Of a stretch of DNA of 24,614 nucleotides, positions 8,788 through 24,614 are shown piece after piece (within the stretch, counting starts at the first letter, position 1; the number at the start of each line of letters is the position of its first letter). Both the position numbers and the translations under genes were made by a program. Under the pieces are notes generated by a model, which made no database searches, had not been told where the DNA came from, and worked only from the letters and a program-made list of their open reading frames with translations. This DNA is from a virus, in the IMG/VR virus record IMGVR_UViG_3300047273_000102, positions 1 through 24,614 of that record; one strand, given 5' to 3'.

Positions 8788-11700
8788 TGAGCGAAGACAT
8801 ACTAGATGATTTACTGAAAAAAATCAGAGAAACTGGAGAGACTTCGTTTGTTCCGGGACCGCTGGACAGGGGAATCTCTTCGCAGAATCCAGACGGATGG
8901 CAAAATTTAAACATTGAAAGGGTTGCAGACAGGGCAAAGCAAGGTTTTTCTGACGCTAAAGGCAGAACGCGCGAAATAGGCGGCAAGGTTTACTTAAACC
9001 CAGAAAGAACATCTTACGTTCCTTATTACAAGGACGCCACCGATGCCTTGCTGAATCCCACGGCCATGAACGCGTTTTCACGGAGTGCTCCGTATTATGC
9101 AACAATTGCCGCTACTTCGCTTTATGGCGGCGGTCTTGTGGCTGCAGCCGGTGAGGGCGCAGCCGCTATTGGTGGGGCCGGAGCACTAGGCACGTCCGCC
9201 ATGCATATTGGCGGGTTTCTTGCTGGTGCTGGCGGCACTGCGTATGCTACGCAGCAAGGCCTTGGAGCTATGGGCTTTAATGGCCCCACTCCGTATGAAC
9301 AATTGACGCAAGCGGGTCCGCTTGCAGCGACCGCTACCGGCATCGGCCTAGCTACATTTAGGCCCGGACTCCCGAGCTCGATGGAACTATTTAAAAAACA
9401 GGCCCTTGGTGGCGCCATGTTTGCCGGTGGTGTCGGTATAGAGGAAGCCGGAAGGGCCGCGATAGGCAAGGCAATGGGGACGGACGAAAGACCCGCTTCT
9501 AAAATCGTAGCAGAAGGGGCGTTGCACATGGGCGAAGCTTTCTTGTTCGGTGTTGCAATGAAGCCGACAGTAATCGGAGAAGGCCTTATACAAGCTGGAA
9601 GAAGTACGGCCAATGCTGGCAATGTACTTCCGTCCATGATTGCGTCTTCGCAATTTGGCGGCGGCCTCTTTAGAAGCGGACCAAGCCCCCTTGATATTAG
9701 GGGCAGAATAATCCCAGCGCGCGAGCCTGGTATAGTTGTAAATGAAGACTTAACTGAAAGCTTTGACCCTGGCTCACCTGCGAGAAGGGTTGGCGATGCC
9801 CCCTACGTTCAGCAGAACACAAGAGGTAGAGGCGGAGTAGTTCTCCGGGACGGAGTTCCGGTTGCTGGAGAAATGGTGCCCACTACGCCATCCGAACCAG
9901 GCCAAACTGGCCTATCTACGCAGACACAGAATTCAACATTTAGACCCTCAAAGACGGGCCGCGGTGACATGACTTCATTTGACCCGGCCACTGGGGCCGG
10001 TCTTAAGATTGAAGTACTGCCAAATGGCGATGTTCAATATACACTATTTACAAACTTGGGCGGAAGCGCACTTAAGGCCAAGGGTCCGTACAAGGACCTT
10101 CCGGACCAGTTCAGAGTTGGTCATCATGACATGGTTCGTGCTAACTTTGACGCAAGAATGGCGGCCAACGAGGCCGCAAGACAAGAGGCAGTATGGCGCG
10201 CCGCAGGGGCAAAGGCAAGGACTCAATCTGAAGTTCCGCCAGTTCCTGCCGCAGAAGCACCTCCGGCCCCGTCTGCGCCAGTGCCGCCCGCTCCGACAGT
10301 CCCCCCTGTTGCACCTGTAGTCCCGAAAGCCGCACCCGTGGCACCCCCAGTAAGCGCAGCTATGGCGGGAGTCCAGCGCAGGTATGACGACGCGCAAGAA
10401 GCCGAACGAGCAGCAGGTCAAGCGGCCACTAAGGCGTCGCAAGATTACGCAGAAGCAGCCCTTCGCGAAGCGCAAGACAGGACGCCTGCCACAACCGAGG
10501 CACGAAGAGCCGCTTCACAAGCAGAAGCGGGCGCGTTAATTATACTGGAAAAAGCACAAATGGAAGCCGAGGCCGCGTCTAAAGGGCTGGCTGCAGCAAA
10601 GCAAGCGGAAGCAGCCAATAATGCGTCTTCATCCACACCGGCCGCACAGGGAGAAAAGGTAAACCCCAGACCGCTATGGAGCACGGACAACGGACTGAGC
10701 GCAAGAGAATGGGATTCTAAATATAGCGACACGCACAACCCGGAAACTGGAGTAAAATACAGTGAAGAAGCGAGACAGCAGCTTAAACTAAGGAACCAAG
10801 CAAGAGAGCAACTTTTTAAAGAAGAACGTGAATGGGAGAAGACAGACCCAGGCGTTGCCTCTGATTCATCAAACGATGATAGTTCTTTGTTTTTAGGAAA
10901 AAAGAGAGTCATCCCAAGAGCAATGCTTACGACTCCGGCTGGAAGAATTGCGTGGGATGAGCTTTATGGAAGCAGATACAATGTCAACGGAGACCCTAAG
11001 GCAGTTAGAAGCAAGGGCCCATTGCCGGCCCCTGCCGAACCTTCTGCCGTCCCCCCAAAACCGGTAGAGCCAGTTACTATACTTTCTGCCGAAGAAGCGG
11101 CAGCCGCCGGGAAAAAAGGCCAAAATCTCCCATCACCCATTGGGGATGAAAATGTAAGAATATTTGATAATGAAATGAAAAGCCCTCTTCTCGGGGGTAC
11201 GCTTGATAAAGACGGAAAGGCAATAACAATAAGCGAGCTTAGCATGGCTGACGCGCAAGGGTTGCTTGACAGCACTGCGAGAAAAATGGCAGCACACATG
11301 GAAGATGGAAGTCCTGGATATCTTCGTGGTGGATATGCTCTTTATCTTGCTGGAGTTAAGAAACTGGCAAAACACATAAAAGCACTTGATGACAAACAAA
11401 AATCAGATGAACTTGAAGCAGAAGTGGCTGCAGCAAACGCTGATGCTGAAAAGGAAAAATTAGAAAGAGAAGAATTTGCAAGACAGCAAGCGAAGAAAAA
11501 CAATCCACTCCCAGCTGAAAACGAAGGCCTTCTTCCTGGAGAAGTGGGCAACTTTGTTAAATTCATGCGTGCAGTGGAGCTTAATGATGCCAAGAAGCTC
11601 ATTGGCATGGGAGACGATGGTAAGCGAAAAAACTATACCTGGAAGCAGGAAGGAGACAATAGATGGACTAATAATGACAACACTGCCATCATTGTAAAGG

Positions 11701-14700
11701 CAGAAGGCGGCGGATACATAATCTACCATCGCCCTACCCCAAAGGCAGCTGCTCCTGTCACGACAGAGGTAGCGCCAGTTGCACCCGTCTTGCCAGCTAC
11801 CCGCGAAGAGCTGCTTGCCGGAACTCGCCCGCTGTCCGAAGCAAGCAAGAGCACAGAAGTCGCACTTACCCCTGCCGACAGAAAGCAATACATTGCAGCC
11901 AGAAAAGCCTTCCTTGAGTCTGGCGGCCAGAAGGCACCCCCAGCTGTAGTTGCTCAGTCTGGGCTTACAACTCCTCCAGGCGGAGAAAACGTAGTGGCAC
12001 CTAGCGCCTCGACTGCTGCGGCAAACCTGCAGGAAGTTCCTCCGACTGCGCCAGCTACGCCTGCCGCGGCTGCTGGAAAGGTCGCTAATGAAATAGAGAG
12101 ACTTGTTGACATCGGAGACGCAAAGGGCGCTGCTGATGTTCAGAAGAGAGTGCTTAATACCCTTCAGCAATTAGTCGAAAGCGAAAGGACAAACCCCACC
12201 GGTCAGCTTGAGGTCAAGGTTCCAGACATGAAGCCAGCTACAGATGTAGCTGGAAAGACAACCGCAATAACTGTTAACGGAGTTGAAGTTGGCGTAATAA
12301 GAAAGGATTCTAGAAAGTTTTCATCTGGACTTGTGTTTACTCCAAGTAAAGCTGGCGCAAAGCTAGGATTAACTAACGTAAATAGTGACTCAGCAGATAC
12401 TAGTTACTACTTAAGCGACGCTGAAATATCATCAATAATAAGCTTCATTGGAGATAAGTACACCGACTCACAAAGATTAAAAGACCCAAGAAAGTACGTA
12501 ATAAGAATTCCTGGCGACGGAACGTTTACAATACCAAGAAGTGAAAAGGCAATACTTGACTTAATGCAACGCATCAAGTCTGGAGGCGCTGAAGCATGGA
12601 GAGGTGTGGCTGGAAGACCCAAGCCGAAAGCCCCGTCCGACTCGCAGCTTCGTGGCCCTAAGTTCAGCCCTACCCTTACCGCTGCAGACAAAAAGCAGCT
12701 TGAGGATTTAATTCTTACAGAGACTGCAAATCTTACTAACCCAATAGACGGAAGGACTCCTGCTGAAATACAGGAGAACATAGATGCTTTAAGAAAGGCC
12801 ATTGCTGGCAGCACGCTCGCGCCCGAGAATCAGTCGGTAAGAGAAATGACATCAGAGGAGCATTGGTCGGTCGAAAAAGACCGCGAAGAAGCTGCTCAGA
12901 GGAACAGAACCCCTGCCGTCACGGAAGCCCCAGAGACAGCCAAGACTAAGGCCCAAACTGACGCCGAAGGTAAGGTCGAAGGAGCCAAGAGATACGGCGC
13001 ATCTGGCGTTAGATTTAACATAGGCGGACCAAAGAACCCCGACTCGTTCGGCGGCGAAATAAGAGGCGAAAAGGGCGTCAAGGTTGCAACGACTCCAGAA
13101 AATTGGAACGAAAAAGACCTGCAGTTAATTAAAGATTACCTTTCATCTGAAGCCGGTGTACTGAGGAACCTTGGCTATCCTAAGTTTTACTTTAACTCGC
13201 ATATAACAGGCGAAGATTCCAATTGGATATCCGCCCCAGTGCCAGCCGCCAATGGCAACTTCCTGGTCTACGAGGTTAACCCCAAGGGCTCTGGCGCAGT
13301 TGGTAATTCCTACAGAAGAACCGCTAGGCTGTTCAGAAAGCTTGTAAATGCGGACGGAAAGCAGATAGGTAGCATGACGGAAGTCGGAAGAGGCGAACTC
13401 GTTGGCATGTCAACTGTGTCAATTGCTCCGGACGGCAAGCCACTCTTCCAGGTTCCTGCCATATTCCACGCCATGATGAAGGCTGCACAGGATTCACTTG
13501 CGTCAAGGCAGATGACGGAAGGACAGGTCAATTTCAGCGGTGACATCACGAACCCGAATCCGCTTAACGCAAGAATACCACTCAGCGGAACAATCCATGA
13601 AGACATGACAGTCTTTGAGGAAAATGAGCTGACTCCTCCTGGCCTTAGGGACAAGATGGAAGTCTTTAATGGACTCAAAAGCGGAGAGGCCATAAACGCA
13701 GCAATTATAGGCTTCATTGGAAGCCCGGACAACGCTTCAGCCGCGATGCTCTCTTCGCAGCTACAGACAAATGGACTTTGGGCTGCTGGCGATGCCGAGT
13801 CTTTCATACAAGGACTTGCTGCCCAGATGGGCCTAGAACCTGGGACTTACGCACTCGTTACATCCCCGACTGACGACGAGCTGTATCCAATAATGAAAAG
13901 ACAGGGCATCTACCCGACGGAGGCAAGACTGATGCTCAAGTGGATACAAAACGGATATCAGAGAATAATTTACGAAGTTGGCAAACATGACCCGGAGACG
14001 GGGTTGGAATTGCCAGACAAGGTGCAGTCTAAGGTTGGCGGGGTTCTGAGATGGCTTCCCAAGCCAGGTCCTAACGGAGAGAAGCTTCCGCTCATGATAA
14101 ACAATCCGGACAAGTGGAGAGCCCCGGTTGCACAATGGATGACTGCTGAAGACTTTACAGTCCGAGACAAGGACGGAAAGGTGACCTTCATGCCCAAGCC
14201 ACACCAAGTTGTTGGCCCTAATATGGCAATGACAAGATGGTTCCCTCCAGGTGTTGACTCCGGACCAAGAGACCTAAAAGCCGGTCAGCCCAGAGCCATA
14301 CTTATAAACGACGCCCCCGGAACTGGCAAGACGCTTCAGATGCTTATGGCAGCCGTGCTGTATCGCCGCCAGCTGATAAAGCTCTCACAGGACCCGACAA
14401 GCAAATGGTTTGGTACAAAGATTCAGCCAGTGCTTATAGTTACCCAGAATGCGCAAATTATACAAAATGCGTTCAAGGGAGACGCCACAATGGCCGGGAT
14501 TGAGCTAAATGGACAATTTACAGAAACAGGCTTTGAGCCAGACGAATACGACGTCGCTCCAGACGGGGGTCGAATACTAAAGGGCAACTCATGGATAGAC
14601 ATAGCCACTTATTCATCAATAAAGCCAACAAGTGAAAAGATATTGCTGTTTGAATCTGACGGAAAGACAGCCAAGATGCAGGACGCCATACTCAGAAATG

Positions 14701-17700
14701 AAGCTGGAAACCCTATCCCTGGCCCAGATGGAAAAGAACAGATAGCATACCATCCCACCGAGGTTGACGCTAAGGGCATGCCGGTTCCGATAAGAGAACA
14801 GGCTTTCAAAATGGTTAAGGTTGGTCCTCCCAAGAAGGGTAACGGCAAGTGGGGAGTTATAATGTTTGACGAAAGTCACAACATGAAGAACGACACAAGC
14901 GCAAGGTCAGACGCTGGCTTTGAGATAATGTCAAACGCTCAGCATGTAATGCTCGCGAGCGGAACGCCCATAGACAAGCCAACGCAGCTAGGTCCGATTC
15001 TAGGCATGTTACTGGATAAGCCAATGGAAGAAATTGCAGCCCAGCTTGGCATGAAACTTGCCATAACGACAAGAAGCGCTGACTTGCTGCTAAAGAAGAG
15101 AGCACCGGAAGACGGAGCCCCGATAATGGACAAGGCAAAGCTTGAGTATGGAACAATGCCAGCCGACCCAATTGAACGAGAAAAGGCTTACAACAATCTG
15201 TTCATAAGGCTAAGAATGCTCAGAGACGAAGCCGGTAAGGCTGGAGCCATACTAAGAAGAAGCACAAAGTACTTTGGTGTTGATAACATTTGGCTAGACC
15301 CAACTGACTCCTTCCATCCGGAAGGCCAGAAAGCGCTGCTGAAACTGCAGACATGGTGGTTTAATGAGATGGCTCTTGGCGCAGAGGGCGAAACTGGGAT
15401 GAATCCGAGAAACATGCGAGGCATGCTTCTGTTTGAATCAAAAAGACTCACGTCACTTATCAAGTGCGGTATACCTGGCACCCCCTGGAACCCATCCGAC
15501 CAACCTAAGGGTGCGGCCAAGATAATGCTTGATGAGCTAAAAGAAGGCAGAAAGGTTATCATAACAATGGATACATCAAATCCATTCAACCTAGCCGATA
15601 CCGCAAACATAAGAAGATTCAGAGGCCTTAAGACAACAGAAAACGCACCGCTTCCGTACGAGTCCGAATGGGTTCAGTGGAAAAAGTACCTTGATAGCCT
15701 TGGCATAAAGTTCGGCTCAATTACTGGCGACTTCGGTATAGCCGAAAGAGAGCACACAGTCAGAGAATTCCAAAAGAACAATCCGGACCTGCCCGTCATC
15801 ATCATGACAACCATGTCTGGTGGAACAGGCCTTTCCATTGACGACAGGCATGGCGTTGGAGGTAAGACCAACCCCAAGAAGCAGTACACAGACGCAGAAA
15901 TAGCTACAATGAAACAGGTTGCCGCCGAGGAAATCGACGGCCAAAAGGTTGAATCCGGAAGCTTGCCGCGCACTATGATAATAGTCTCATCTCCCTGGGG
16001 TGGCGACGTATTCATCCAGGCGATGGGAAGAACGGACAGAGTCCTGTCCACTACACCTTCAAGAATCATTGTTTTGACTTCCCATATATCAGAAGGTGAC
16101 GAAAAGCTTGCTGACCTTGTCAGAATGAAGACAATGGCTACCAATGCCATCAACGAAACTGGCGACGAATTGGCTGCCGCGGTAATCATGGATGCTGCAG
16201 AAAACGGAGCTGGCATAAAAGACACAGAGGGACTCAAGCCCGTAAAGGAGCTTGGAGGCGTGACAGCAGGAGACAAGTCTGCCGAATCAGTGTCAGAAGA
16301 GGTAAAGTACTTTAAAAACAAGGCGAAGCAGACGATGAAGAAAAACCTTGCCGCCGTTGATGACGTCGTAAAAACAAACAAAGACAAGCTTGCGCAGGCC
16401 AAAAAGAACAATTCGACACAGAGGGACATAACAAGATGGGAAGATAACCTTGAGTCAGCCGAAGCTTACCAGAAATGGGCGCGTGGAATACTTAAAGGAC
16501 TTGAAGATGGAAGCGTTGACTACAAGTCGGTTATATCAAACTTAAAGAAGTATTCTTATGAGGAATACAAAAAGGAAGAAGGAGCCGGAGATATGGACCC
16601 TGCTGACGAAGATGGCGGCAGCGGAGGTCAAAGAAACGAGCTGGCATTGGACCTGCCATTAGGAAAGGCCATGCCGGTTCGCGAAGGCGTTCCGACATCA
16701 GTCAGCGGCCTAAACAGAAAAGGAAAGCCGTCTCGCAATAGGCAGATAATAGACAGACTTTACGGAGTAAATCACTTGGCATCCGGCGGAAAGGTGTCCG
16801 AAGAGGAGCTTGCAGCCATAGAACAAACTGTCGTTGACATAGTTGTGCCATTTGTTGAAGAAAACAGACAAGGACGACTAAGTGACCAAAAGTTAAAGTC
16901 TGTAATGAGAATGGCCTCAGACGTTGCTCATCTCGTACATAAATACGAAATAATACTAAAGAAAGCAGACGTTAACACGAAGTACGCCGGTCAAATGAGC
17001 TTCTCCGGGAAGGCAATACTTCAATTGCTTAAACCAAGACTAGAAACAAGAACGGGTCCGATATACCACGAAATAGGACATGCAATATTTGAAATGCTTC
17101 CGGAGGAAGAAAAGAAGTTGGTGGTTGCGGAGCTGCAAGCAGCCAGGCTTGACTGGGTTCGCGAACTTGGAATCGAGCACCCTCTCACATCAATAGTCTT
17201 CCCGTCCGTTGACTGGAGAGACCCTCAAGGACTTGAGAACTACGACTTTAAAGGAGTGCAGGTAAAGAAAGCCCCCGTGCCATACTCTACGTCAAAAGTA
17301 TACACCTCGGTAATAGCACAGAGAACTCCTGGCGGACTTCTTGAATCAACAAAAGAAGGCGTAAAGGATAGGGTTGGCCCAGCACTTGCGTCAAAGGCGC
17401 TTAGGATAGCTTTTAATAACGCCGTCAAAGCCGGATGGGTCAAGGCAAGCGAGATGCCCAAGTTTGCCGTCGAAGACGTCGCGGCAAAGGGGTGGTATGG
17501 TCAGCCGGGGCAAATGGATGTAGTTGAGAGCGGAATCACGCCTCAGCAAAAGGCCACAAAGGCGTTGCTGTCAATGTTTTCTGCATCAATGCTTCAGTAC
17601 AGAAACACAACTAGGGCAAAAATGGAATCATTAACAAAGATTGTTAAGGCAAAAGACCTAACAACTGGAGTTAATTTTGATAATTTAGAAATAACACTTC

Positions 17701-20700
17701 ACCATATTAGTTCGTTGGCTCGCGGAGGTTGGGGTCATTACTCGGTTGGAGAGGACGGCTCGCTGACCCTAACCACAAGGGCTGACTTGGCTAAAAATTC
17801 AAAAAAGCACACCAGTACAATAGAAACTGAAAGAGAAAAGTCCAACAAGCACGTAGATGGAAATTTTGCAGAAAAAATAGGCAATGCTCCAAATATGGTT
17901 CAAATATTCATACCAGGAAAGGATGTATATGAAATGTTTGTACATTCATTTGGCTCAATAAATCCGACTGGTTCATTGGCTGCAGAAGTGTTTGAATCAC
18001 CAAGAGTCGCTACATTCGACTTTGTGACAATGGCAAACAGCGTGTCTGAGGTTGTTACCGGACTGGCAGAAGACTCAATGATAGCACATAATTATAAATA
18101 TGTGAACGCCGACGAATGGATTGCCAACAATACAGAAATCCTGTTCAATGACTTTTATGACAGAAATGAGCATAGCGACCTCACTGGGCTCACGGCATCA
18201 ATAACTGCTTCAATCTTTGTCAACGCGTCCGCTGGAGGTTATGGAAACGTTGTAAAGTCTATAGTTGCCGCCTTGGTTTCTGGAAGAATGACTCCGGCTA
18301 CGGCTACAGCTGGACTCAGCTTGAGCGGCGCCCAGTGGCACGCGGAATACCTAAAGGGTCAGAACGTGATGGCAGCCAACGCGGCAGCTAACGCGCCCCC
18401 GCAGTCAGAGATAGACGACGACGTTTTAGCTCTCGACCCCACCCCGATTATCGGACCTGCCAGACGCAAGCTTGAGTCTGCAATTGAAGGCCTTCACGCT
18501 ATGGCTGCGTCTATAGCTGAATCAGCCCTGGACTCACCAGTCATATCAGACGGAAGCAGCATGAGCGAGTGGCTCAAGTCCGTAAGAAAGAGAAAATTCC
18601 AAACCGGAAGGCCAGACAATGTCACAGGATTTGGAGTTGGCTACAAGCTTCAGCACGTCTGGGGCACCCTCATAGGCCAAGTCGAACAGATAGCTCAGAT
18701 AACCAGAGACCCGTTTGTTGCTGAGCTTTCTGCCAGACTTTATCCAGCTCCCAATAGCGGGCTGAATGTAAGAATAACATACACAGAAGACGTCTATGCA
18801 CATACGTCATACTGGACCAATAGTTCTTCCGCTATACTCAGAGACAACGGACTTGACAAGAAAGTAAAAGAAGCGAAAAACGATAAAATCAGAAGACTTG
18901 TCCAGGGAGCCGAGAACATGCCAGGATTTGAAGATGCACTTACAAAGTACATTCTAAAGGTCCACAATCCCATATATAACACACTTGAAAGAATTCAGTT
19001 TGAAATAGACGCAATCGAGGCGGACGACAAGGGCAACAAGACCTTAACTGCCTCTCTAAAGAGAGAGCTTCAGAGGTTTGGACTTAGCCCTTCGGAGTGG
19101 AGAAAGATTAACGACTTAATGCTGTCAGAAGAGAGCGACGCACGGATTGACGCCGCTTCCTTTAACAAGGGCGGCAAATACGACAAGGTTGCGCTCGGAA
19201 GAGAAGCAGACGCTTTCCTTTCAGAATTCATAGAAGCTGGCGGCATTGACAAATTGATGATGGACGTTGGCAGGAGCATGGCAATACCGAAGGACTCTCC
19301 GGAATACCTAACCAGGGCTCAAAGGTTTGAGCCAGAGTCAATAGCGACCGCGGACGCCCTGCTGGATGGATGGTCTGGGCCGTTCCTCGATTGGGCAAAG
19401 GGCATGGGACATCCTATCGCAGACTGGGGCAGCTCATGGGTGCCTCGCATGGTAGACGGAAACATAGTCTCATCCTACGGCAATGCATCCGGTGACGACT
19501 TTACGCTTACAGCCGCAAAGGCAATGCTTGAGGATAACAAATTCCAGAGAGTTAGGCTCCCGGCAAGCTTCAAGGTTCCTCTGACCGACTTCTCGGTTTC
19601 GTCACTAATAGTGAATTCAAGCACGATGCCACACCTGTCAAAAGCCGAGGTAGCAGACTTGCTTACACAGTTCCTCGACCCAGTTACAAAGAAGGACACC
19701 CTTACCTACCCCTCATGGATGGCCGCAAGGGTATCTCAGATTATATCCGGAAAGACGCCAAAGGAATCCTTCATGGGCTACGACGTTTCTGCGGTCAATC
19801 TGGTTGACGGCAAGGAAGTAGAAGACATTGACCCCATTACTGGCGCAGCCACGCCAAGAACGGAAAAGACAACACTGGCTCAACACATGTCCGTAAATCT
19901 TCAAATATACAGGGGTAAGCTTGAGGAAAAAGCGATATCCCTGTATGGAAGCGTCAGAAAAGCCCTTACGATTAGGTCATTTAAGGATGAGCACGAAATG
20001 GTAAGCAGAGCAATAGACGAACTATCCCAAAGCCATGAGCGCAAGGTGCTCGCTGGGCCGCTAACCCCCGCGGCAGCTATAGCCATAGCAAAGAAGTGGA
20101 AAACACGAATTGAGCACAGGGCTTCTGGCGTCCAGAGCAGTAATCAAGGATACGCGGACCTCTTTGGCGGACAACATGGAAACATGAAGACCCCGGACAG
20201 CATGAGACAGAGACAGATGGACACGGCTGCTGCGGATAAAATACTTGATCGTTTTTACATAAGAGACCCAAGAGTATTCCTTCCGGCCTACAATGAATCA
20301 GTGGTTAGAAATCTAATGCTTAAAAAGCACCTCCCCGAAGGATTCTTCGAGAGAATGCAGAAATCAATAACATCAAGTCCGGAAAACAGAAGATTCTGGC
20401 CGGAGCTCACGTATCTGATGGCTAAGATTACCAACTCACAGCCAGCGCACGATTCATCAAATCTGTTTAAATCAATAGTTACACTCGCATCTGCAACGAC
20501 GTTCATGCCTGTCACCTCGGTGTTACAGTTGACGGAGTCCATGCCAGCCGGGTTGCATACTCCGCACTTTATAAGCTCAAGCAACGTCTTTGCAAGGCTT
20601 GCCGGAAGCACAACCCCTGGCCTTGTTGCTACCGGTAACACACTGAGAATCGCTGCACTAAAGTCGGCAAATGCCGTAGTAAAGGTGGCGGCTGAGCTTG

Positions 20701-22244
20701 CCACGATTCACTCTATATACGTTGACCCGAAGGTAATGGAACTTGAAATAGACAAGTTCATGTACAGGCTTGCCGAAAGAAGTGGAGTCATCATGTCAAC
20801 TTACGTTGATGACATTCCTCAGAGTTCAGCAGACCCGCGCGGCACAGTCCAGCGGTTCACGGACAAGATGATTAACAGGTACCACAGGCAGGGCAATGCG
20901 CTTGCAACAGTGACAGACATGTCAAGAGTTGCTGTGCTAAAGGGCAATGTCTTGATGCTTGAGTCAACTGCCGATGAAATACTTCTACGCGAATTTGGTC
21001 ATTACGGAAAGAATGGAGCACCGGATGAGGCGTCATTTGCAAAATTGTTGAAGCCACTCGAAATACTGCTTCTGAGAAACCTTGGAATACCGGATTCTGA
21101 GCTAAAAGCGTTCCTAAATCACGCGCTAATAACAAGAAGCATTACACAGCAGGATATATCAAGCATACCTGCGTACAAAATAGAGCAAACGCTTAGAACG
21201 CTTATTGATTCTGGGTATAAAGAAGGAAACCTGCATGCGCAATTGTATTCGAATGCGCTTAACAGATTGAACATGCTTACGATTCAGCGTTCGGTACCGG
21301 CGAACATGTCAAGACTCAGAGGCCTGGTTGATAGACACATTGGCGTATTTGCTGGCTCATCCATGTTCTTCTTGACCAACTTCAATTCTGCGCTGGCAAG
21401 AAATGTCATGCTTCCTGCCGCAAGAATGCTCACAAGCCCGTACACTGAGCTTAGCAGGGTCAGAAATGCTGGCGACCAGGACAAGAGCGCCCCTGCCGGT
21501 ACATACCTTACAGATGTTGGTTACCCAGTGAGCCCAGGATTTTCAACCGGAAAAATGCTTCCTGCCATCGCGTTGATGGGAGCCATGACAACGTTCATAA
21601 ACTTCGAAACCAGAAACTTTAGAAAGTGGGCGAGAAACGACCCAGCAACGACGTTCATGGACGACAGAACGACACTGCTAAAGGTTTTTGCGGCCATTGA
21701 CCAAGCTGGCTTTACAGGCAATCTGTCCCTGCCAATTAACGTGGCACAGGCACTCAGATACCAGCGAGAAGCCGCACAGGTTGCCGCCGGTCCGTTCTTT
21801 GGTGGCATAGCTGGGGTGATTGACGCTGGAAGAACAATACTTTCAGACAAGAACTCAGCCAACACCCCCACGGCGGAGAGAGCGGGTGCAAAGATTACCT
21901 ACGACATGATTATAAGACCAATCGGGCAGGTCGGTCTTCAGATGCTCACTTCAAGTGGCGGTATTGGAGACATACTGAACCTTGTAGGAACGCAAGCTAT
22001 GGCCCACCCGCAGACGAGGGAATCCTTCATGAGATGGGTTGCTGACGACATTTTTAACGCTGGAAACGGCGGAAAGCGAGTACCGGTTTCAAAGGGAGAC
22101 CTCATTAAAGCCTACGAAAAGAACCTTATAACAAGAGAGCAAATGATGGAAGGTCTAAGAATAAGGGCACAATATGACTCGCAACATGCCAAGGAAATGG
22201 CTATGAGAGAAGCAAATGAAGCTTTCAAGAGAAGAAAAGAATAA
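8787..22244 (+). CDS. Giant polyvalent virion protein with SF2 helicase and HEIGH zinc-peptidase motifs (gp16 position)
   Basis: This is one intact frame of 4485 codons, over half the window. Order of parts: Gly/Ala-rich hydrophobic region, about residues 103-275; Pro/Ala linker 483-525; coiled coil about 530-612; small domains separated by further Pro/Ala linkers up to about 1280; an unassigned region to 1790; a helicase with Walker A APGTGKT (1843-1849), DESH (2028-2031), LASGTP (2056-2061) and QAMGRTDR (2411-2418); a charged helical spacer; HEIGH at 2761-2765; then about 1,300 residues of unassigned, partly hydrophobic sequence ending in a basic tail (KRRKE). It closes the internal virion protein series, where T7 has gp16 (1318 residues). 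I see no lytic transglycosylase and no DPPY/NPPY methyltransferase motif. Large phage proteins that fuse helicase, peptidase and linker domains are known as polyvalent proteins and are injected to protect or prepare the genome. Arg is mostly AGA/AGG. No Shine-Dalgarno sequence is seen, and the start overlaps the previous stop. Confidence 0.85.
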   Translation: MSEDILDDLLKKIRETGETSFVPGPLDRGISSQNPDGWQNLNIERVADRAKQGFSDAKGRTREIGGKVYLNPERTSYVPYYKDATDALLNPTAMNAFSRSAPYYATIAATSLYGGGLVAAAGEGAAAIGGAGALGTSAMHIGGFLAGAGGTAYATQQGLGAMGFNGPTPYEQLTQAGPLAATATGIGLATFRPGLPSSMELFKKQALGGAMFAGGVGIEEAGRAAIGKAMGTDERPASKIVAEGALHMGEAFLFGVAMKPTVIGEGLIQAGRSTANAGNVLPSMIASSQFGGGLFRSGPSPLDIRGRIIPAREPGIVVNEDLTESFDPGSPARRVGDAPYVQQNTRGRGGVVLRDGVPVAGEMVPTTPSEPGQTGLSTQTQNSTFRPSKTGRGDMTSFDPATGAGLKIEVLPNGDVQYTLFTNLGGSALKAKGPYKDLPDQFRVGHHDMVRANFDARMAANEAARQEAVWRAAGAKARTQSEVPPVPAAEAPPAPSAPVPPAPTVPPVAPVVPKAAPVAPPVSAAMAGVQRRYDDAQEAERAAGQAATKASQDYAEAALREAQDRTPATTEARRAASQAEAGALIILEKAQMEAEAASKGLAAAKQAEAANNASSSTPAAQGEKVNPRPLWSTDNGLSAREWDSKYSDTHNPETGVKYSEEARQQLKLRNQAREQLFKEEREWEKTDPGVASDSSNDDSSLFLGKKRVIPRAMLTTPAGRIAWDELYGSRYNVNGDPKAVRSKGPLPAPAEPSAVPPKPVEPVTILSAEEAAAAGKKGQNLPSPIGDENVRIFDNEMKSPLLGGTLDKDGKAITISELSMADAQGLLDSTARKMAAHMEDGSPGYLRGGYALYLAGVKKLAKHIKALDDKQKSDELEAEVAAANADAEKEKLEREEFARQQAKKNNPLPAENEGLLPGEVGNFVKFMRAVELNDAKKLIGMGDDGKRKNYTWKQEGDNRWTNNDNTAIIVKAEGGGYIIYHRPTPKAAAPVTTEVAPVAPVLPATREELLAGTRPLSEASKSTEVALTPADRKQYIAARKAFLESGGQKAPPAVVAQSGLTTPPGGENVVAPSASTAAANLQEVPPTAPATPAAAAGKVANEIERLVDIGDAKGAADVQKRVLNTLQQLVESERTNPTGQLEVKVPDMKPATDVAGKTTAITVNGVEVGVIRKDSRKFSSGLVFTPSKAGAKLGLTNVNSDSADTSYYLSDAEISSIISFIGDKYTDSQRLKDPRKYVIRIPGDGTFTIPRSEKAILDLMQRIKSGGAEAWRGVAGRPKPKAPSDSQLRGPKFSPTLTAADKKQLEDLILTETANLTNPIDGRTPAEIQENIDALRKAIAGSTLAPENQSVREMTSEEHWSVEKDREEAAQRNRTPAVTEAPETAKTKAQTDAEGKVEGAKRYGASGVRFNIGGPKNPDSFGGEIRGEKGVKVATTPENWNEKDLQLIKDYLSSEAGVLRNLGYPKFYFNSHITGEDSNWISAPVPAANGNFLVYEVNPKGSGAVGNSYRRTARLFRKLVNADGKQIGSMTEVGRGELVGMSTVSIAPDGKPLFQVPAIFHAMMKAAQDSLASRQMTEGQVNFSGDITNPNPLNARIPLSGTIHEDMTVFEENELTPPGLRDKMEVFNGLKSGEAINAAIIGFIGSPDNASAAMLSSQLQTNGLWAAGDAESFIQGLAAQMGLEPGTYALVTSPTDDELYPIMKRQGIYPTEARLMLKWIQNGYQRIIYEVGKHDPETGLELPDKVQSKVGGVLRWLPKPGPNGEKLPLMINNPDKWRAPVAQWMTAEDFTVRDKDGKVTFMPKPHQVVGPNMAMTRWFPPGVDSGPRDLKAGQPRAILINDAPGTGKTLQMLMAAVLYRRQLIKLSQDPTSKWFGTKIQPVLIVTQNAQIIQNAFKGDATMAGIELNGQFTETGFEPDEYDVAPDGGRILKGNSWIDIATYSSIKPTSEKILLFESDGKTAKMQDAILRNEAGNPIPGPDGKEQIAYHPTEVDAKGMPVPIREQAFKMVKVGPPKKGNGKWGVIMFDESHNMKNDTSARSDAGFEIMSNAQHVMLASGTPIDKPTQLGPILGMLLDKPMEEIAAQLGMKLAITTRSADLLLKKRAPEDGAPIMDKAKLEYGTMPADPIEREKAYNNLFIRLRMLRDEAGKAGAILRRSTKYFGVDNIWLDPTDSFHPEGQKALLKLQTWWFNEMALGAEGETGMNPRNMRGMLLFESKRLTSLIKCGIPGTPWNPSDQPKGAAKIMLDELKEGRKVIITMDTSNPFNLADTANIRRFRGLKTTENAPLPYESEWVQWKKYLDSLGIKFGSITGDFGIAEREHTVREFQKNNPDLPVIIMTTMSGGTGLSIDDRHGVGGKTNPKKQYTDAEIATMKQVAAEEIDGQKVESGSLPRTMIIVSSPWGGDVFIQAMGRTDRVLSTTPSRIIVLTSHISEGDEKLADLVRMKTMATNAINETGDELAAAVIMDAAENGAGIKDTEGLKPVKELGGVTAGDKSAESVSEEVKYFKNKAKQTMKKNLAAVDDVVKTNKDKLAQAKKNNSTQRDITRWEDNLESAEAYQKWARGILKGLEDGSVDYKSVISNLKKYSYEEYKKEEGAGDMDPADEDGGSGGQRNELALDLPLGKAMPVREGVPTSVSGLNRKGKPSRNRQIIDRLYGVNHLASGGKVSEEELAAIEQTVVDIVVPFVEENRQGRLSDQKLKSVMRMASDVAHLVHKYEIILKKADVNTKYAGQMSFSGKAILQLLKPRLETRTGPIYHEIGHAIFEMLPEEEKKLVVAELQAARLDWVRELGIEHPLTSIVFPSVDWRDPQGLENYDFKGVQVKKAPVPYSTSKVYTSVIAQRTPGGLLESTKEGVKDRVGPALASKALRIAFNNAVKAGWVKASEMPKFAVEDVAAKGWYGQPGQMDVVESGITPQQKATKALLSMFSASMLQYRNTTRAKMESLTKIVKAKDLTTGVNFDNLEITLHHISSLARGGWGHYSVGEDGSLTLTTRADLAKNSKKHTSTIETEREKSNKHVDGNFAEKIGNAPNMVQIFIPGKDVYEMFVHSFGSINPTGSLAAEVFESPRVATFDFVTMANSVSEVVTGLAEDSMIAHNYKYVNADEWIANNTEILFNDFYDRNEHSDLTGLTASITASIFVNASAGGYGNVVKSIVAALVSGRMTPATATAGLSLSGAQWHAEYLKGQNVMAANAAANAPPQSEIDDDVLALDPTPIIGPARRKLESAIEGLHAMAASIAESALDSPVISDGSSMSEWLKSVRKRKFQTGRPDNVTGFGVGYKLQHVWGTLIGQVEQIAQITRDPFVAELSARLYPAPNSGLNVRITYTEDVYAHTSYWTNSSSAILRDNGLDKKVKEAKNDKIRRLVQGAENMPGFEDALTKYILKVHNPIYNTLERIQFEIDAIEADDKGNKTLTASLKRELQRFGLSPSEWRKINDLMLSEESDARIDAASFNKGGKYDKVALGREADAFLSEFIEAGGIDKLMMDVGRSMAIPKDSPEYLTRAQRFEPESIATADALLDGWSGPFLDWAKGMGHPIADWGSSWVPRMVDGNIVSSYGNASGDDFTLTAAKAMLEDNKFQRVRLPASFKVPLTDFSVSSLIVNSSTMPHLSKAEVADLLTQFLDPVTKKDTLTYPSWMAARVSQIISGKTPKESFMGYDVSAVNLVDGKEVEDIDPITGAATPRTEKTTLAQHMSVNLQIYRGKLEEKAISLYGSVRKALTIRSFKDEHEMVSRAIDELSQSHERKVLAGPLTPAAAIAIAKKWKTRIEHRASGVQSSNQGYADLFGGQHGNMKTPDSMRQRQMDTAAADKILDRFYIRDPRVFLPAYNESVVRNLMLKKHLPEGFFERMQKSITSSPENRRFWPELTYLMAKITNSQPAHDSSNLFKSIVTLASATTFMPVTSVLQLTESMPAGLHTPHFISSSNVFARLAGSTTPGLVATGNTLRIAALKSANAVVKVAAELATIHSIYVDPKVMELEIDKFMYRLAERSGVIMSTYVDDIPQSSADPRGTVQRFTDKMINRYHRQGNALATVTDMSRVAVLKGNVLMLESTADEILLREFGHYGKNGAPDEASFAKLLKPLEILLLRNLGIPDSELKAFLNHALITRSITQQDISSIPAYKIEQTLRTLIDSGYKEGNLHAQLYSNALNRLNMLTIQRSVPANMSRLRGLVDRHIGVFAGSSMFFLTNFNSALARNVMLPAARMLTSPYTELSRVRNAGDQDKSAPAGTYLTDVGYPVSPGFSTGKMLPAIALMGAMTTFINFETRNFRKWARNDPATTFMDDRTTLLKVFAAIDQAGFTGNLSLPINVAQALRYQREAAQVAAGPFFGGIAGVIDAGRTILSDKNSANTPTAERAGAKITYDMIIRPIGQVGLQMLTSSGGIGDILNLVGTQAMAHPQTRESFMRWVADDIFNAGNGGKRVPVSKGDLIKAYEKNLITREQMMEGLRIRAQYDSQHAKEMAMREANEAFKRRKE
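14184..16160 (+). other. Helicase region inside the giant protein (SNF2 / strawberry-notch-like)
   Basis: Residues about 1800-2458 hold the full set of superfamily 2 helicase motifs in order. A Q-like KPHQVVGPN segment comes first, then Walker A with K1848, VLIVTQN (motif Ia), DESH as motif II (D2028, E2029), SGTP as motif III, KVIITMD and GSITGDF for the second RecA fold, MTTMSGGTGLSI as motif V, and QAMGRTDR as motif VI with R2415 and R2418 as arginine fingers. After motif VI the segment SEGDEKLADLVRMKTM resembles the strawberry-notch C-terminal region ('GE..f...v..rl'). All catalytic residues are present, so an active ATPase is expected. Subfamily placement between SNF2 and strawberry notch is uncertain. 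Confidence 0.8.
16980..18150 (+). other. Zinc-metallopeptidase-like region inside the giant protein
   Basis: Residues about 2732-3122 follow the helicase and a charged spacer. HEIGH at 2761-2765 is preceded by a hydrophobic strand end (GPIY) and followed by AIFEMLPEEEK, the usual form of a zincin active-site helix with H2761 and H2765 as zinc ligands and E2762 as catalytic base. The third ligand is not certain. A candidate is E3110 in NADEWIANN, which resembles the 'EfFAe' glutamate seen in phage and toxin zincins, but it lies 345 residues downstream. The long gap includes an AT-rich stretch (17620-18000) that may be an insertion. Peptidase activity is inferred from the motif only. Confidence 0.55.
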
Positions 22245-22635
22245 ACGAACAAACACTTGGCGAAGGTCATGGAGTCATTCGAAGTGGCTCTATCACATAT
22301 GCAGAGCGCGCGCCAGAAGAACCGGAAGAGAGTGGAACTTGCAAATATCCGACATTCACGTCCCCTATAGGTGCCCCGTGTTGGGCATAAAATTGGTAAT
22401 GAATGTTGGATTTGGAAAGAAAAACTCAGCAACAATAGACAGAATAAACCCCAAAAAAGGATACATAAAATCAAACATAGCCGTGATATCACACATGGCT
22501 AACAGGATAAAATCCAATGCTACCTCGGAAGAAATTAAAAAAACCTACCAATGGCTCAAAAAAAATGAAAATAATCACCGCATTCATAAAGTCTATAATC
22601 GAACTCGCAAAACTTTTAACAAAAAAGTGAAATGA
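22216..22635 (+). CDS. HNH-like homing endonuclease
   Basis: This 139-residue basic protein has the hallmarks of a common phage HNH-like family: a helical RARARRTGREWNL part, CPVLGIKL at 53-60, IDRINPKKGY at 74-83, then SNIAVISHMANRIKSNAT (86-103). The Asp-Arg of DRINP and the Asn of the N-x-A-V-I-S segment are typical metal- and DNA-contacting positions of this group. Zinc-binding cysteine pairs are absent, as is usual for these members. The first 29 bases lie in another frame inside the 3' end of the giant gene, and its stop overlaps the spanin start (ATGA). Such genes often behave as free-standing homing endonucleases inserted between phage genes. A DNA-packaging nicking role is a less likely alternative. 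Confidence 0.78.
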   Translation: MKLSREEKNKRTNTWRRSWSHSKWLYHICRARARRTGREWNLQISDIHVPYRCPVLGIKLVMNVGFGKKNSATIDRINPKKGYIKSNIAVISHMANRIKSNATSEEIKKTYQWLKKNENNHRIHKVYNRTRKTFNKKVK

Positions 22636-23354
22636 ATAAGATATGTATAATATTAACCTGTTTCTGTCTGTCATCTTGCAGTTCGTCGAAAGAGGACATT
22701 GCGAGGCCGCAGCCAGCTTCGGAAAAGCTTATTGGTACGGAGGAGCGGGCCAACTCGCGCGTATCAGCATCAGCGGAGGCTATCAAGAAAGCAAACGAGC
22801 TCAATACGCATACCAACTCAAAAACGGCAATAGCCGCAGAAGCTGGACTAATTACGGCGACAGTCGGGAGCCCTGGCGCGCAGGATTCCGCGGCAGCCAT
22901 GAAGAGACTGGAGGACTACCTCGGAGGAAGGGTGAAGGAAGCAGAAAGCGCAAGGGCGGTGGCAGAAAAAGAGGCCGTGGCAGGAAAGGCGCAGGTTGAG
23001 GCCCTTAAAAAGCAACACCAGAAGGAGATGGAGGAATCCAGGGCTGAGATATCAATGCTCAAGGCGAAGTCAGAAGAGGAAAGAAAAGAGAACACAACCC
23101 TGCTTTTTGCATTCTTCGGCGCCGTACTTGCGTCAATCGGAGCCCTCGGATTTGCGTTTACACCCTTCAAGAAGGGATTTGGCTATGTCATAGCATCCGG
23201 AATGCTGATGGGAAGCGTTGCCTTCGTCTGGGATAGCGTCTGGTTCCACGCCATACTTGCAACTACTCTTGTTGCCGGAATAGCGTACGCATTCATTCAG
23301 ATTAAGAAGAGGAAACAGGAGGCCGCAGATGAACAGCGAAAAGAATCTACTTGA
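22632..23354 (+). CDS. Candidate unimolecular spanin: lipoprotein with three C-terminal membrane segments
   Basis: This 240-residue protein has a lipoprotein signal peptide (residues 1-15) ending in a canonical lipobox L13-S-S-C16. Serine follows the cysteine, which favours outer-membrane sorting. Residues 20-155 are hydrophilic and mostly helical, Ala/Glu/Lys-rich, with likely coiled coil from about 95 to 153. Three hydrophobic segments follow at about 156-176, 184-200 and 206-224, then a basic tail (KKRKQE). A protein fixed to the outer membrane by lipid and to the inner membrane by its C-terminal part is the design of a u-spanin such as T1 gp11, which fuses the two membranes at the end of lysis. 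T1 gp11 has one membrane segment, so three would be unusual. The holin gene overlaps its last 26 bases, which supports a lysis role. A plain lipoprotein of other function remains possible. Confidence 0.65.
   Translation: MNKICIILTCFCLSSCSSSKEDIARPQPASEKLIGTEERANSRVSASAEAIKKANELNTHTNSKTAIAAEAGLITATVGSPGAQDSAAAMKRLEDYLGGRVKEAESARAVAEKEAVAGKAQVEALKKQHQKEMEESRAEISMLKAKSEEERKENTTLLFAFFGAVLASIGALGFAFTPFKKGFGYVIASGMLMGSVAFVWDSVWFHAILATTLVAGIAYAFIQIKKRKQEAADEQRKEST
23317..23322 (+). promoter_or_regulatory. Strong ribosome binding site of the holin gene
   Basis: AGGAGG is a full Shine-Dalgarno match six bases before the holin ATG. It lies inside the spanin coding region and is the best site in this window. 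It fixes the holin start at 23329 and shows that the holin does not depend on reinitiation, unlike many of the upstream late genes. Confidence 0.8.
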
Positions 23355-23643
23355 AACATTTCTAGATAATACATTAATCAGCGCAATTATAGGTGCCGCT
23401 GGTATGTCATGTAGGTTGCTTCTAAGTGAAAATAAGGAAATTACAATATGGATAGCTATAAGACATATTATCGCAGCCATGTTGACCGCGGTAGTGGTAG
23501 GCCACGCGGCATCTGACTACATAAGTACAGAGAGTACTAGGTACGCACTTGTCGGGGTCGCTGGCTACGCTGCCCCAGAAGTTCTGGATGCCTGTCTTAA
23601 GTTGGTCAGAAAACAGATAGAAAAAATAACCAAAAAAGGTTGA
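23329..23643 (+). CDS. Holin with three membrane segments (LydA-like)
   Basis: This 104-residue protein has three predicted membrane segments, at about residues 14-32, 39-62 and 71-93, and a basic C-terminal tail (RKQIEKITKKG). Size and layout fit class I holins, and the style resembles the LydA-type group (P1 LydA is about the same length). Holins gather in the inner membrane and open it at a set time, so that the endolysin reaches the cell wall. The gene starts 26 bases inside the spanin candidate, with a strong ribosome binding site. A dual start (holin/antiholin) is not obvious, since the next Met is at residue 26. No endolysin gene is next to it in this window. Confidence 0.72.
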   Translation: MNSEKNLLETFLDNTLISAIIGAAGMSCRLLLSENKEITIWIAIRHIIAAMLTAVVVGHAASDYISTESTRYALVGVAGYAAPEVLDACLKLVRKQIEKITKKG

Positions 23644-23656
23644 CGCGGGTGCTCTG

Positions 23657-23676
23657 CATGCCAAACTAGTGGCATG
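23657..23676 (+). promoter_or_regulatory. 20-base dyad covering the start codon of the helix-turn-helix gene
   Basis: Two perfect 7-base arms (23657-23663 and 23670-23676) flank a six-base spacer. The right arm ends in the ATG at 23674-23676. A second pair of complementary five-base arms (23652-23656 and 23681-23685) could lengthen the stem with a four-A bulge. No T-run follows, so it is not a terminator. It could be a repressor operator or an RNA hairpin that hides the start codon. Confidence 0.5.
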
Positions 23677-23898
23677 AAAACAGAGTACGACGTCAAAGGT
23701 CTACTTGACTCCATCGGAGGCAAGGCGGACGCCCATGCTTTACTGGCGGCAGAAAATTGCCACGTGACGATGAAAGCGATTGACAAGTGGATACTGCGAC
23801 GCAGCATACCTTCATACGCAATCATGGCTCTCATCGTTGGAGCCAGCAAATACAAGGGTATAACGCTTGACGTACCAAAATTTTGGAAGAAACTTTAA
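23674..23898 (+). CDS. Small helix-turn-helix DNA-binding protein, Cro/YdaS-like
   Basis: This 74-residue protein has a likely helix-turn-helix. There is a first helix at about residues 6-14 (DVKGLLDSI). A GGKADAHALLAAENC segment at 15-29 resembles 'GG...lA..lg', and a recognition helix at about 32-40 (TMKAIDKWI) is followed by RRSIPS, the 'W..R..iP' pattern seen after that helix in Cro- and YdaS-type regulators. A hydrophobic C-terminal helix (AIMALIVGA) may give dimerisation. No Shine-Dalgarno sequence is visible, and the start codon is inside a dyad. It begins the stretch where the late genes give way to replication-type genes, so it may regulate one of the two. The function is inferred. 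Confidence 0.6.
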   Translation: MKTEYDVKGLLDSIGGKADAHALLAAENCHVTMKAIDKWILRRSIPSYAIMALIVGASKYKGITLDVPKFWKKL

Positions 23899-23900
23899 CC

Positions 23901-24329
23901 ATGAAAAACACAAAAGAAATCAGCATCGAAAAACTCAAGGCCCGCCTTACGAGCATCTCTCGCGAGAAGGCTTTCCTCGTCAATGAGGAGAAAGAAATCC
24001 AAGCAACGCTTCGCGAAAAACTTCAGCGTCCGTTCGCTGATGAACTCAAGACTCTCGGCAAGGAGAGCGGCGAAGTGACCATGCTTGTAGACGACGTCAA
24101 GGTTAAGATGGAGATTCGCAAGACAGTCACTTGGGACAGCGACCAACTCTACCTCATCGCCAAGGAGATGGGTCCCGAAAACGCGGTCAAGATTATGACC
24201 ATCGAAGCATCGATGCCCGAAACAAATTACAACAAGATTCCTGTTGACAGCAAGTGGTGGGGCGCAATAACCTCTGCTCGCACAGTCAAATACTCTGACC
24301 CCAAGTTCTCTTTTCCCACCCAAGAATAA
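23901..24329 (+). CDS. Unrecognised phage protein upstream of P-loop ATPase gene
   Basis: This 142-143-residue protein starts at ATG 23901, two codons after the previous stop. A TTG 18 bases upstream in the same frame overlaps the preceding gene and is not preferred. The GGAAG at 23885-23889 is a weak ribosome binding site. The first 45 residues form a charged helix (probably coiled coil: KLKARLTSISREKAFLVNEEKEI). A beta-like part follows (GEVTMLVDDVKVKMEIRKTVTW). The TVTWDSDQL motif resembles small proteins found beside RecA-like ATPases in phage replication or recombination blocks, but I cannot name it. All six arginines use CGC or CGT, and nine of ten isoleucines use ATC or ATT, unlike the late genes. 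Confidence 0.72.
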   Translation: MKNTKEISIEKLKARLTSISREKAFLVNEEKEIQATLREKLQRPFADELKTLGKESGEVTMLVDDVKVKMEIRKTVTWDSDQLYLIAKEMGPENAVKIMTIEASMPETNYNKIPVDSKWWGAITSARTVKYSDPKFSFPTQE

Positions 24330-24337
24330 AAACACAC

Positions 24338-24614
24338 ATGACCACCAAATCACACACCAAGTTCGGTTTCATTAAAGCAGATGACAGACTCAAGGCAAAG
24401 CCCAAGGTCAACATCGCCATGTTCGGTCCCAGCGGAGTCGGCAAGACTACGCAAGCCCGAACCCTCGACCCCAAGACCACCCTTTTTGTTGACCTTGAGG
24501 CTGGCACTCTTGCGATTCAAGATTGGGCTGGCGATGTGTTCGACATACGAACTGCCGCTTCTGCTACTGGGCTTCACCCTTGGGAAGTTGCTCGCCTACT
24601 TGCGTTAATCGTAG
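24338..24614 (+). CDS. P-loop ATPase, AAA_24 / Sak4-like (5' part only)
   Basis: The start is at ATG 24338 and the frame runs off the window end, leaving 92 residues. A Walker A motif FGPSGVGKT has K36 and T37. The following segment, TTLFVDLEAGTLAI, is the strand with the acidic 'D-x-E-x-G' typical of the phage nucleotide-binding protein group (AAA_24), which includes Sak4-like single-strand annealing recombinases. Their job is ATP-dependent handling of single-stranded DNA during replication and recombination. No clear ribosome binding site is seen. The gene lies eight bases after the preceding stop, so the two are probably cotranscribed. Codon use is CGN-rich. Without the C-terminal part, the Sak4 subgroup cannot be confirmed. 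Confidence 0.75.
   Translation, partial: MTTKSHTKFGFIKADDRLKAKPKVNIAMFGPSGVGKTTQARTLDPKTTLFVDLEAGTLAIQDWAGDVFDIRTAASATGLHPWEVARLLALIV

Follow-up and report, generated by a model that had tools for sequence, protein, structure and literature searches.

A probable switch between late and early genes of a phage at the start of a Cro-like regulator gene

Two described systems are precedents for the locus analysed here. In phage PY54, the cro mRNA begins at the AUG, and the strong promoter in front of it has an UP-like stretch (according to the accessible part of PMC4488713). At T4 gene e, a hairpin forms only in long transcripts, because its 5′ strand contains the late promoters (PMC3014915, accessible part). 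For leaderless genes in general, a −10-like signal about 10–12 bases before the start codon has been given as a criterion (in the available excerpt of PMC3160421).

We analysed a stretch of 24,614 bases, an IMG/VR virus record, referred to below as the window. Like the cro loci of PY54 and N15, as far as their published description was accessible, it contains a gene for a small Cro-like protein with a putative promoter directly before the start codon and an A+T-rich sequence upstream. The region around this start codon probably serves to switch between late and early genes of the phage. In our main reading, to which we assign a probability of about 0.4, an early promoter would drive a leaderless Cro-like gene, and a hairpin would form only in transcripts running on from the holin gene, where it would hide the ATG.

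Late genes, early block and the regulator family

The 3′ part of the window carries the following genes:
23329–23643, + strand: holin-like lysis gene, last of the late genes (PHROG 6384 holin, E 4.5e-7)
23674–23898, + strand: 74-residue Cro-like helix-turn-helix gene, with its proposed transcription start at the ATG
23901–24329, + strand: second gene of the early block, a 142-residue protein (PHROG 2480, unknown function, E 2.1e-8)
24338–24614, + strand: Sak4-like recombinase, truncated by the window end (Pfam AAA_24, E 2.9e-10; PHROG 124, E 8.5e-11)

The preliminary description had placed a small helix-turn-helix regulator at the border between late and replication genes. The gene order agrees, since the regulator heads the replication genes directly behind the holin gene, whose Pfam match (Phage_holin_3_3, E 1.3e-4) falls short of the family cutoff. 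The late genes run directly into the regulator, with no + strand terminator reported in a scan of 22000–24614. A terminator was discarded as a candidate, as the five terminator-like sites in this range are all on the − strand. Within the window, we saw no cI gene adjoining the regulator. Further upstream, the late genes include a single ORF of 4485 residues (8787–22244), the end of which is overlapped by an endonuclease-like gene (22216–22635; PHROG 3322, E 5e-29) that also matches endonuclease VII and HNH families. At the other end of the window, positions 79–129 hold the most stable + strand 39-base folds, and a T run precedes the ORF at 121. This is probably a terminator; its counterpart in the L002 contig, a close relative, follows a 358-residue ORF that we take to be the capsid gene.

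The helix-turn-helix assignment is supported by the predicted fold of the protein, which is Cro-like, though its match to N15 Cro is weak. The AlphaFold2 model is helical with a mean pLDDT of 92.2, and N15 Cro was its best Foldseek match (E 0.49, TM 0.55), with none at E ≤ 0.001. A profile search against PDB chains, N15 Cro included, gave no sequence match, and neither Pfam nor PHROG matched the regulator at E below 0.05. The NCBIfam carph-isopro domain was found in four of four members (best E 0.00017), the window protein scoring 19.2 bits against a cutoff of 38; no mention of this domain was found in the literature searched.

To cover the wider family, we scanned with the C-terminal half of the Sak4-like protein and took the best 80 of at least 574 related stretches. 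Of the 78 loci L017–L094 from this sample, 56 have a regulator homologue (E < 0.05) upstream of their Sak4 match; profile E values range between 1.5e-21 and 0.043, and the few weakest hits are borderline and rest on position. Gene context was compared in 33 sequences among the matches listed, i.e., 32 distinct ones plus L003. A same-strand holin-like gene lies upstream in 17 of these, where a divergent integrase or repressor was not found (holin-type); "holin-like" here means similarity to five seed proteins, with family support for the window's seed only, no Pfam match for three of the other proteins searched, and L042 classed by one other seed alone with 722 bases available upstream. A divergent integrase lies upstream in 13 (integrase-type: L022, L027, L029, L034, L050, L051, L052, L054, L083, L084, L085, L086 and L026), four of which also have a cI-like gene, and the remaining three are unclear. 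Pfam assigned all three of the cI-like genes tested to HTH_3; HTH_3 repressors adjoin the homologue divergently in L052, L084 and L085, and L026 has a relative of these. In 8 of the 13 integrase-type sequences a holin-like gene is found further upstream, and the lysogeny module hence looks gained or lost between the holin and the cro-like gene. Judged from sequence, the regulator occupies the position of cro in temperate phages.

Among close and fairly close relatives, the regulator is 96% identical to the window protein in L002, 92% in L003 and 52% in L005. Queries with the helix-turn-helix protein, the second gene product, the Sak4 N-terminal part and the giant protein returned only these three contigs, and the phage collection, the genome collection and PDB sequences contained no additional close relatives.

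The probable promoter before the regulator gene

Three elements make up the proposed promoter:
23615–23639, + strand: A+T-rich, UP-element-like stretch that is at the same time coding sequence for the lysine-rich end of the holin
23640–23645, + strand: TTGACG, proposed −35 box and outer left hairpin arm (from TTGAC conservation and matrix rank)
23662–23667, + strand: CAAACT, proposed weak −10 box with a spacer of 16, overlapping the inner dyad described below (assigned by eye)

It is quite probable from the following comparisons that this stretch is the promoter of the Cro-like gene heading the early (replication) block of a tailed phage. TTGAC occurs 75–20 bases before the regulator start in 22 of 32 distinct sequences among the matches listed, the window and L002 included, against a background of 276 of 4718 windows of 55 bases (5.8%). 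The 20 bases upstream of it are 70% A+T compared with a locus mean of 44%, all 22 being above, and compared with 48% at 224 other TTGAC (p 2e-10). With an upstream/−35 matrix built on 20 other sequences, 23640 scores highest among 49168 window positions, as does the homologous site among 59624 positions of the L002 contig; the training sequences were selected for TTGAC, which favours the rank, and include L005, L017 and L018 of the window's clade. With the upstream stretch without TTGAC, the window site ranks 171 of 49180. A matrix of the downstream part alone places it only at 35438 of 49182, and with both parts combined it falls to rank 8, while the L002 site stays first. A generic sigma-70 scan did not report a promoter at 23640.

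The −10 region is less well defined. CAAACT has an A in the second and a T in the sixth place of the hexamer and is far from TANNNT. Across the family, an (A/C)AA..T signal appears about 23–28 bases downstream of the first T of TTGAC, and AACT follows the TTGAC hexamer by 15–21 bases in 10 of 22 promoters versus 10 of 226 other TTGAC.

In the window, L002, L003, L005, L017 and L018, TTGAC lies 34–35 bases before the ATG, which is the usual spacing from a −35 box to the transcription start; the distance to the start is 39–71 in the 17 other distinct TTGAC-bearing sequences. From this spacing it follows that the transcript is probably leaderless and would lack the 5′ arm of the hairpin. The −10 box assigned by eye is 5–6 bases from the ATG in the same six clade sequences (6 in the window), which would put the transcription start on the ATG. 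All in all, we consider a leaderless start of the regulator transcript slightly better than an even bet. No Shine-Dalgarno match was found at the window regulator start (duplex +1.0 kcal/mol), and the duplex score in L002 is modest (−4.2). On the L002 contig (L009, L010), several early and head gene starts likewise have no Shine-Dalgarno match and their leaders are A/C-rich, which suggests that host or phage initiates without it.

The predicted hairpin over the start codon

The arms of the predicted structure, apart from the outer left arm TTGACG, are as follows:
23649–23656, + strand: middle helix left arm, GTGCTCTG (RNA fold; one pair double-changed between window and L002/L003)
23657–23663, + strand: inner dyad left arm, CATGCCA
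23670–23676, + strand: inner dyad right arm, TGGCATG, start codon included
23681–23688, + strand: middle helix right arm, CAGAGTAC, codons 3–5 (RNA fold; comparison with L002/L003)
23691–23696, + strand: outer right arm, CGTCAA, Asp-Val-Lys codons (RNA fold; Asp-Val-Lys recurs in relatives)

The preliminary description had reported a perfect 7+6+7 inverted repeat over the ATG with possible outer arms, and had read it as a dimeric repressor site or as an RNA hairpin that hides the start, either one suggesting self-control of the regulator. The repeat is indeed found at 23657–23676 (CATGCCA-AACTAG-TGGCATG, arm centres 13 bases apart), and the start ATG of the 74-residue ORF (23674–23676) sits in its right arm. 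It can also be extended, as CTCTG (23652–23656) and CAGAG (23681–23685) flank the dyad; these arms grow to GTGCTCTG and CAGAGTAC with one G-U pair, a mismatch if the site were DNA. Together with the outermost pairing of TTGACG (23640–23645) and CGTCAA (23691–23696), this gives a nested hairpin of 57 bases (23640–23696) with 21 pairs in three helices of 6, 8 and 7 pairs. Taken alone, the 7+6+7 dyad is common in 24.6 kb and evidence of little weight: perfect 7-base arm pairs around loops of 3–10 number 18 in the window, compared with a mean of 12.25 in 40 dinucleotide shuffles, and exact 7+6+7 cases number three, compared with a mean of 1.7.

The complete fold is much more pronounced. For 23638–23698 we obtained −28.2 kcal/mol (z −6.7), a value equalled by none of 200 shuffles, versus −6.2 kcal/mol for the 41 bases from the ATG onward folded alone. 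In the predicted fold the ATG is paired with probability 1.00, in agreement with the earlier notion that the RNA would conceal the start. When TTGACG and the coding part were fixed and only the 28-base gap between them was shuffled, none of 1000 mononucleotide and none of 500 dinucleotide shuffles matched the stability of the window. The outer helix was dropped as evidence for RNA structure; it is expected anyway, since the promoter accounts for the conservation of TTGACG and the recurring Asp-Val-Lys codons account for CGTCAA. Rfam gave no known RNA family in 22600–24614 at E up to 1. A split Shine-Dalgarno as in T4 genes 25 and 38 was ruled out, since the ATG is inside the hairpin rather than after it. 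Within codons 7–12 of the regulator gene (23692–23709), there is a further inverted repeat, GTCAA-AGGTCTAC-TTGAC, which is the same in L002 and differs by one spacer base in L003; codon constraint may be the cause of its conservation.

In the close relatives, the three helices behave differently. L002 and L003 have the same outer helix as the window. The middle helix has 91.7% of its cells paired in the window, L002 and L003, with one double change from U-A to G-C and one G-U pair; these changes are only suggestive, because pair-column shuffles of the three sequences equal the observed score in 64 of 500 cases. The inner helix has 61.9% of its cells paired, being lost in both L002 and L003, and the pairing probability of the ATG is 0.02 and 0.08 there, compared with 0.95 in L018. 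A paired ATG by itself is not special, as values above 0.9 are also found in the weak-fold relatives L022, L027, L026 and L050. In gap shuffles, native stability was reached in 11 of 1000 for L003, 46 for L002, 49 for L018 and 50 for L005, the last being unremarkable with dinucleotide shuffles (59 of 500), and no hairpin excess was seen in L017, L066, L063, L024, L025 and L054.

Beyond the clade, a family-wide hairpin was rejected, since the mean z over the 33 sequences is only −0.63. Holin-type sequences are slightly more structured than integrase-type ones (p 0.051; 0.12 without the window and L003). Dyads with arms of at least five bases near the regulator start are found in 19 of 32 sequences against 10.0 expected, and near the second-gene start in 9 of 29 against 7.0. 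This enrichment was set aside as unspecific because the Sak4 start is enriched as well; there, 15 of 26 distinct loci compare with 4.9 expected from shuffles.

The promoter may be real and the hairpin and its dyad without function, the −35 box, the Asp-Val-Lys codons and a drifting 28-base gap having come to pair by chance. The loss of the inner helix in L002 and L003, the other explanation for the outer helix, the abundance of perfect 7-base arms across the window and the low family-wide structure are all in agreement with this. Against it stand the gap shuffles, where 0 of 1000 reach the window and L003, L002, L005 and L018 are at 11–50 of 1000. We judge such a functionless hairpin on a real promoter rather unlikely in itself and rate it nearly as likely as the proposed switch. 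That the hairpin has a function is a tentative assumption.

The position of the holin stop allows for translational coupling. The TGA (23641–23643) lies within TTGACG, and thus within the outer 5′ arm; 30 bases further on comes the regulator ATG, which has no Shine-Dalgarno. A ribosome at the holin stop could melt the lower stem, and regulator translation from late RNA would then need holin translation. However, the inner helix starts 14 bases beyond the holin stop and could persist, and in L005 the stop of the upstream gene precedes TTGAC, yet TTGAC is kept. Coupling appears very unlikely.

Alternatively, the inner dyad might be a DNA operator over the −10 box at which the Cro-like dimer would bind to repress its own gene. 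The dyad covers the −10 box and the start, and the predicted fold of the regulator would suit such a role. The dyad is, however, gone from relatives with 96% and 92% identical regulators, which makes it a poor operator candidate for the window protein. In particular, L003 shares with the window residues 28–38 (NCHVTMKAIDK), which run into the predicted recognition helix (33–42), where I40V is the sole difference. A search for further copies, as had been proposed, found no second exact one in the window and 94 loci, the single match among the loci being L001, the window itself; with up to three mismatches, there are six window matches versus 1.4 expected, the other five having two or three mismatches.

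Several relatives bear a different dyad, CTACA-N3-TGTAG, at the regulator promoter. With up to two mismatches, it is found 27 times in 9240 bases of −250 to +30 compared with 59 times in 257331 bases elsewhere; the motif was picked by eye from part of the tested sequences, −250 to −76 being unused in its definition. In this latter range it is enriched in the 13 integrase-type sequences (8 in 2262 bases versus 24 in 106687; odds ratio 15.7, p 2e-7), which have 9 further sites in −76 to +30. The 17 holin-type sequences have 8 sites in −76 to +30, and no enrichment is seen in −250 to −76 (2 in 2958 bases, p 0.18). The window's clade has zero sites in −250 to +30. Nine sequences (L022, L027, L029, L050, L051, L052, L026, L042 and L030), seven of them with a divergent integrase, carry paired dyads of this kind 38–73 bases apart between −109 and −22, which are candidates for shared operators of a lysis-lysogeny switch. 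In some relatives the halves mismatch, e.g., CCGAC-N5-GTAGG, as would be more in keeping with a site in DNA than with a helix in RNA. Self-control is thus plausible for the family, as relatives carry operator-like dyads at the regulator promoter; the clade of the window is without this motif at the promoter. As an operator of the 74-residue protein, this dyad is quite unlikely.

The proposed switch and known systems

In the proposed switch, the −35 box TTGACG (23640), the A+T-rich stretch upstream and the weak −10 box (23662) would direct transcription to begin with the A of the ATG (23674) or right beside it, and the Cro-like gene would be translated from a leaderless mRNA. As the 5′ arms lie upstream of this start, promoter-made RNA would be without them and its ATG free. 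Given that the likely transcript begins at the ATG, the hairpin would be confined to late-gene read-through RNA. Such RNA from the holin gene would carry the full stretch, fold into the 57-base hairpin and hide the ATG; as a consequence, the early regulator would not be produced from late transcripts. Sequence comparison supports the conserved TTGAC, the A+T-rich upstream stretch and the 34–35 base spacing in the clade, and hairpin stability is predicted for the window; leaderless start, read-through and translation block are inferred from these.

We may further speculate, although as a whole this is unlikely, that within one 57-base stretch the holin stop, both promoter boxes (−35 and −10) and the start codon are superposed on a hairpin that would act as a switch sensing where the RNA came from. 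The lineage would be one whose holin and cro-like genes have no integrase/repressor module between them. If true, a phage without a lysogeny module beside its early block would silence the early regulator in late RNA with no terminator needed, and the leaderless early transcript is what would make this terminator-free silencing possible. A phage family with and without integrase also allows comparing one cro-like promoter and its operators.

In a literature search of titles and abstract beginnings, we found, among the matches listed, nothing on the phage group of the window and no leaderless cro with a start-codon hairpin. Acidithiobacillus phage AcaML1 has a similar early block of regulator, small gene and Sak4-like protein (47% identical). 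In contrast to the window, an antirepressor intervenes, and the regulator profile finds no match in the first gene of AcaML1, which has, by eye, a Shine-Dalgarno-like leader. For PY54, a leaderless cro mRNA is described, as proposed here, and the accessible part of that source (PMC4488713) does not mention a start-codon hairpin. Unlike PY54 and N15 cro, the regulator has no adjoining prophage repressor within the window, and it gave no profile match to the N15 Cro chain. T4 gene e and I-TevI share with our model a start hidden in a long-transcript hairpin and a promoter in the 5′ strand (PMC3014915, accessible part). The timing in the window would be reversed, with an early gene shielded from late RNA, and the promoter would be of host type, the transcript probably leaderless and without Shine-Dalgarno.
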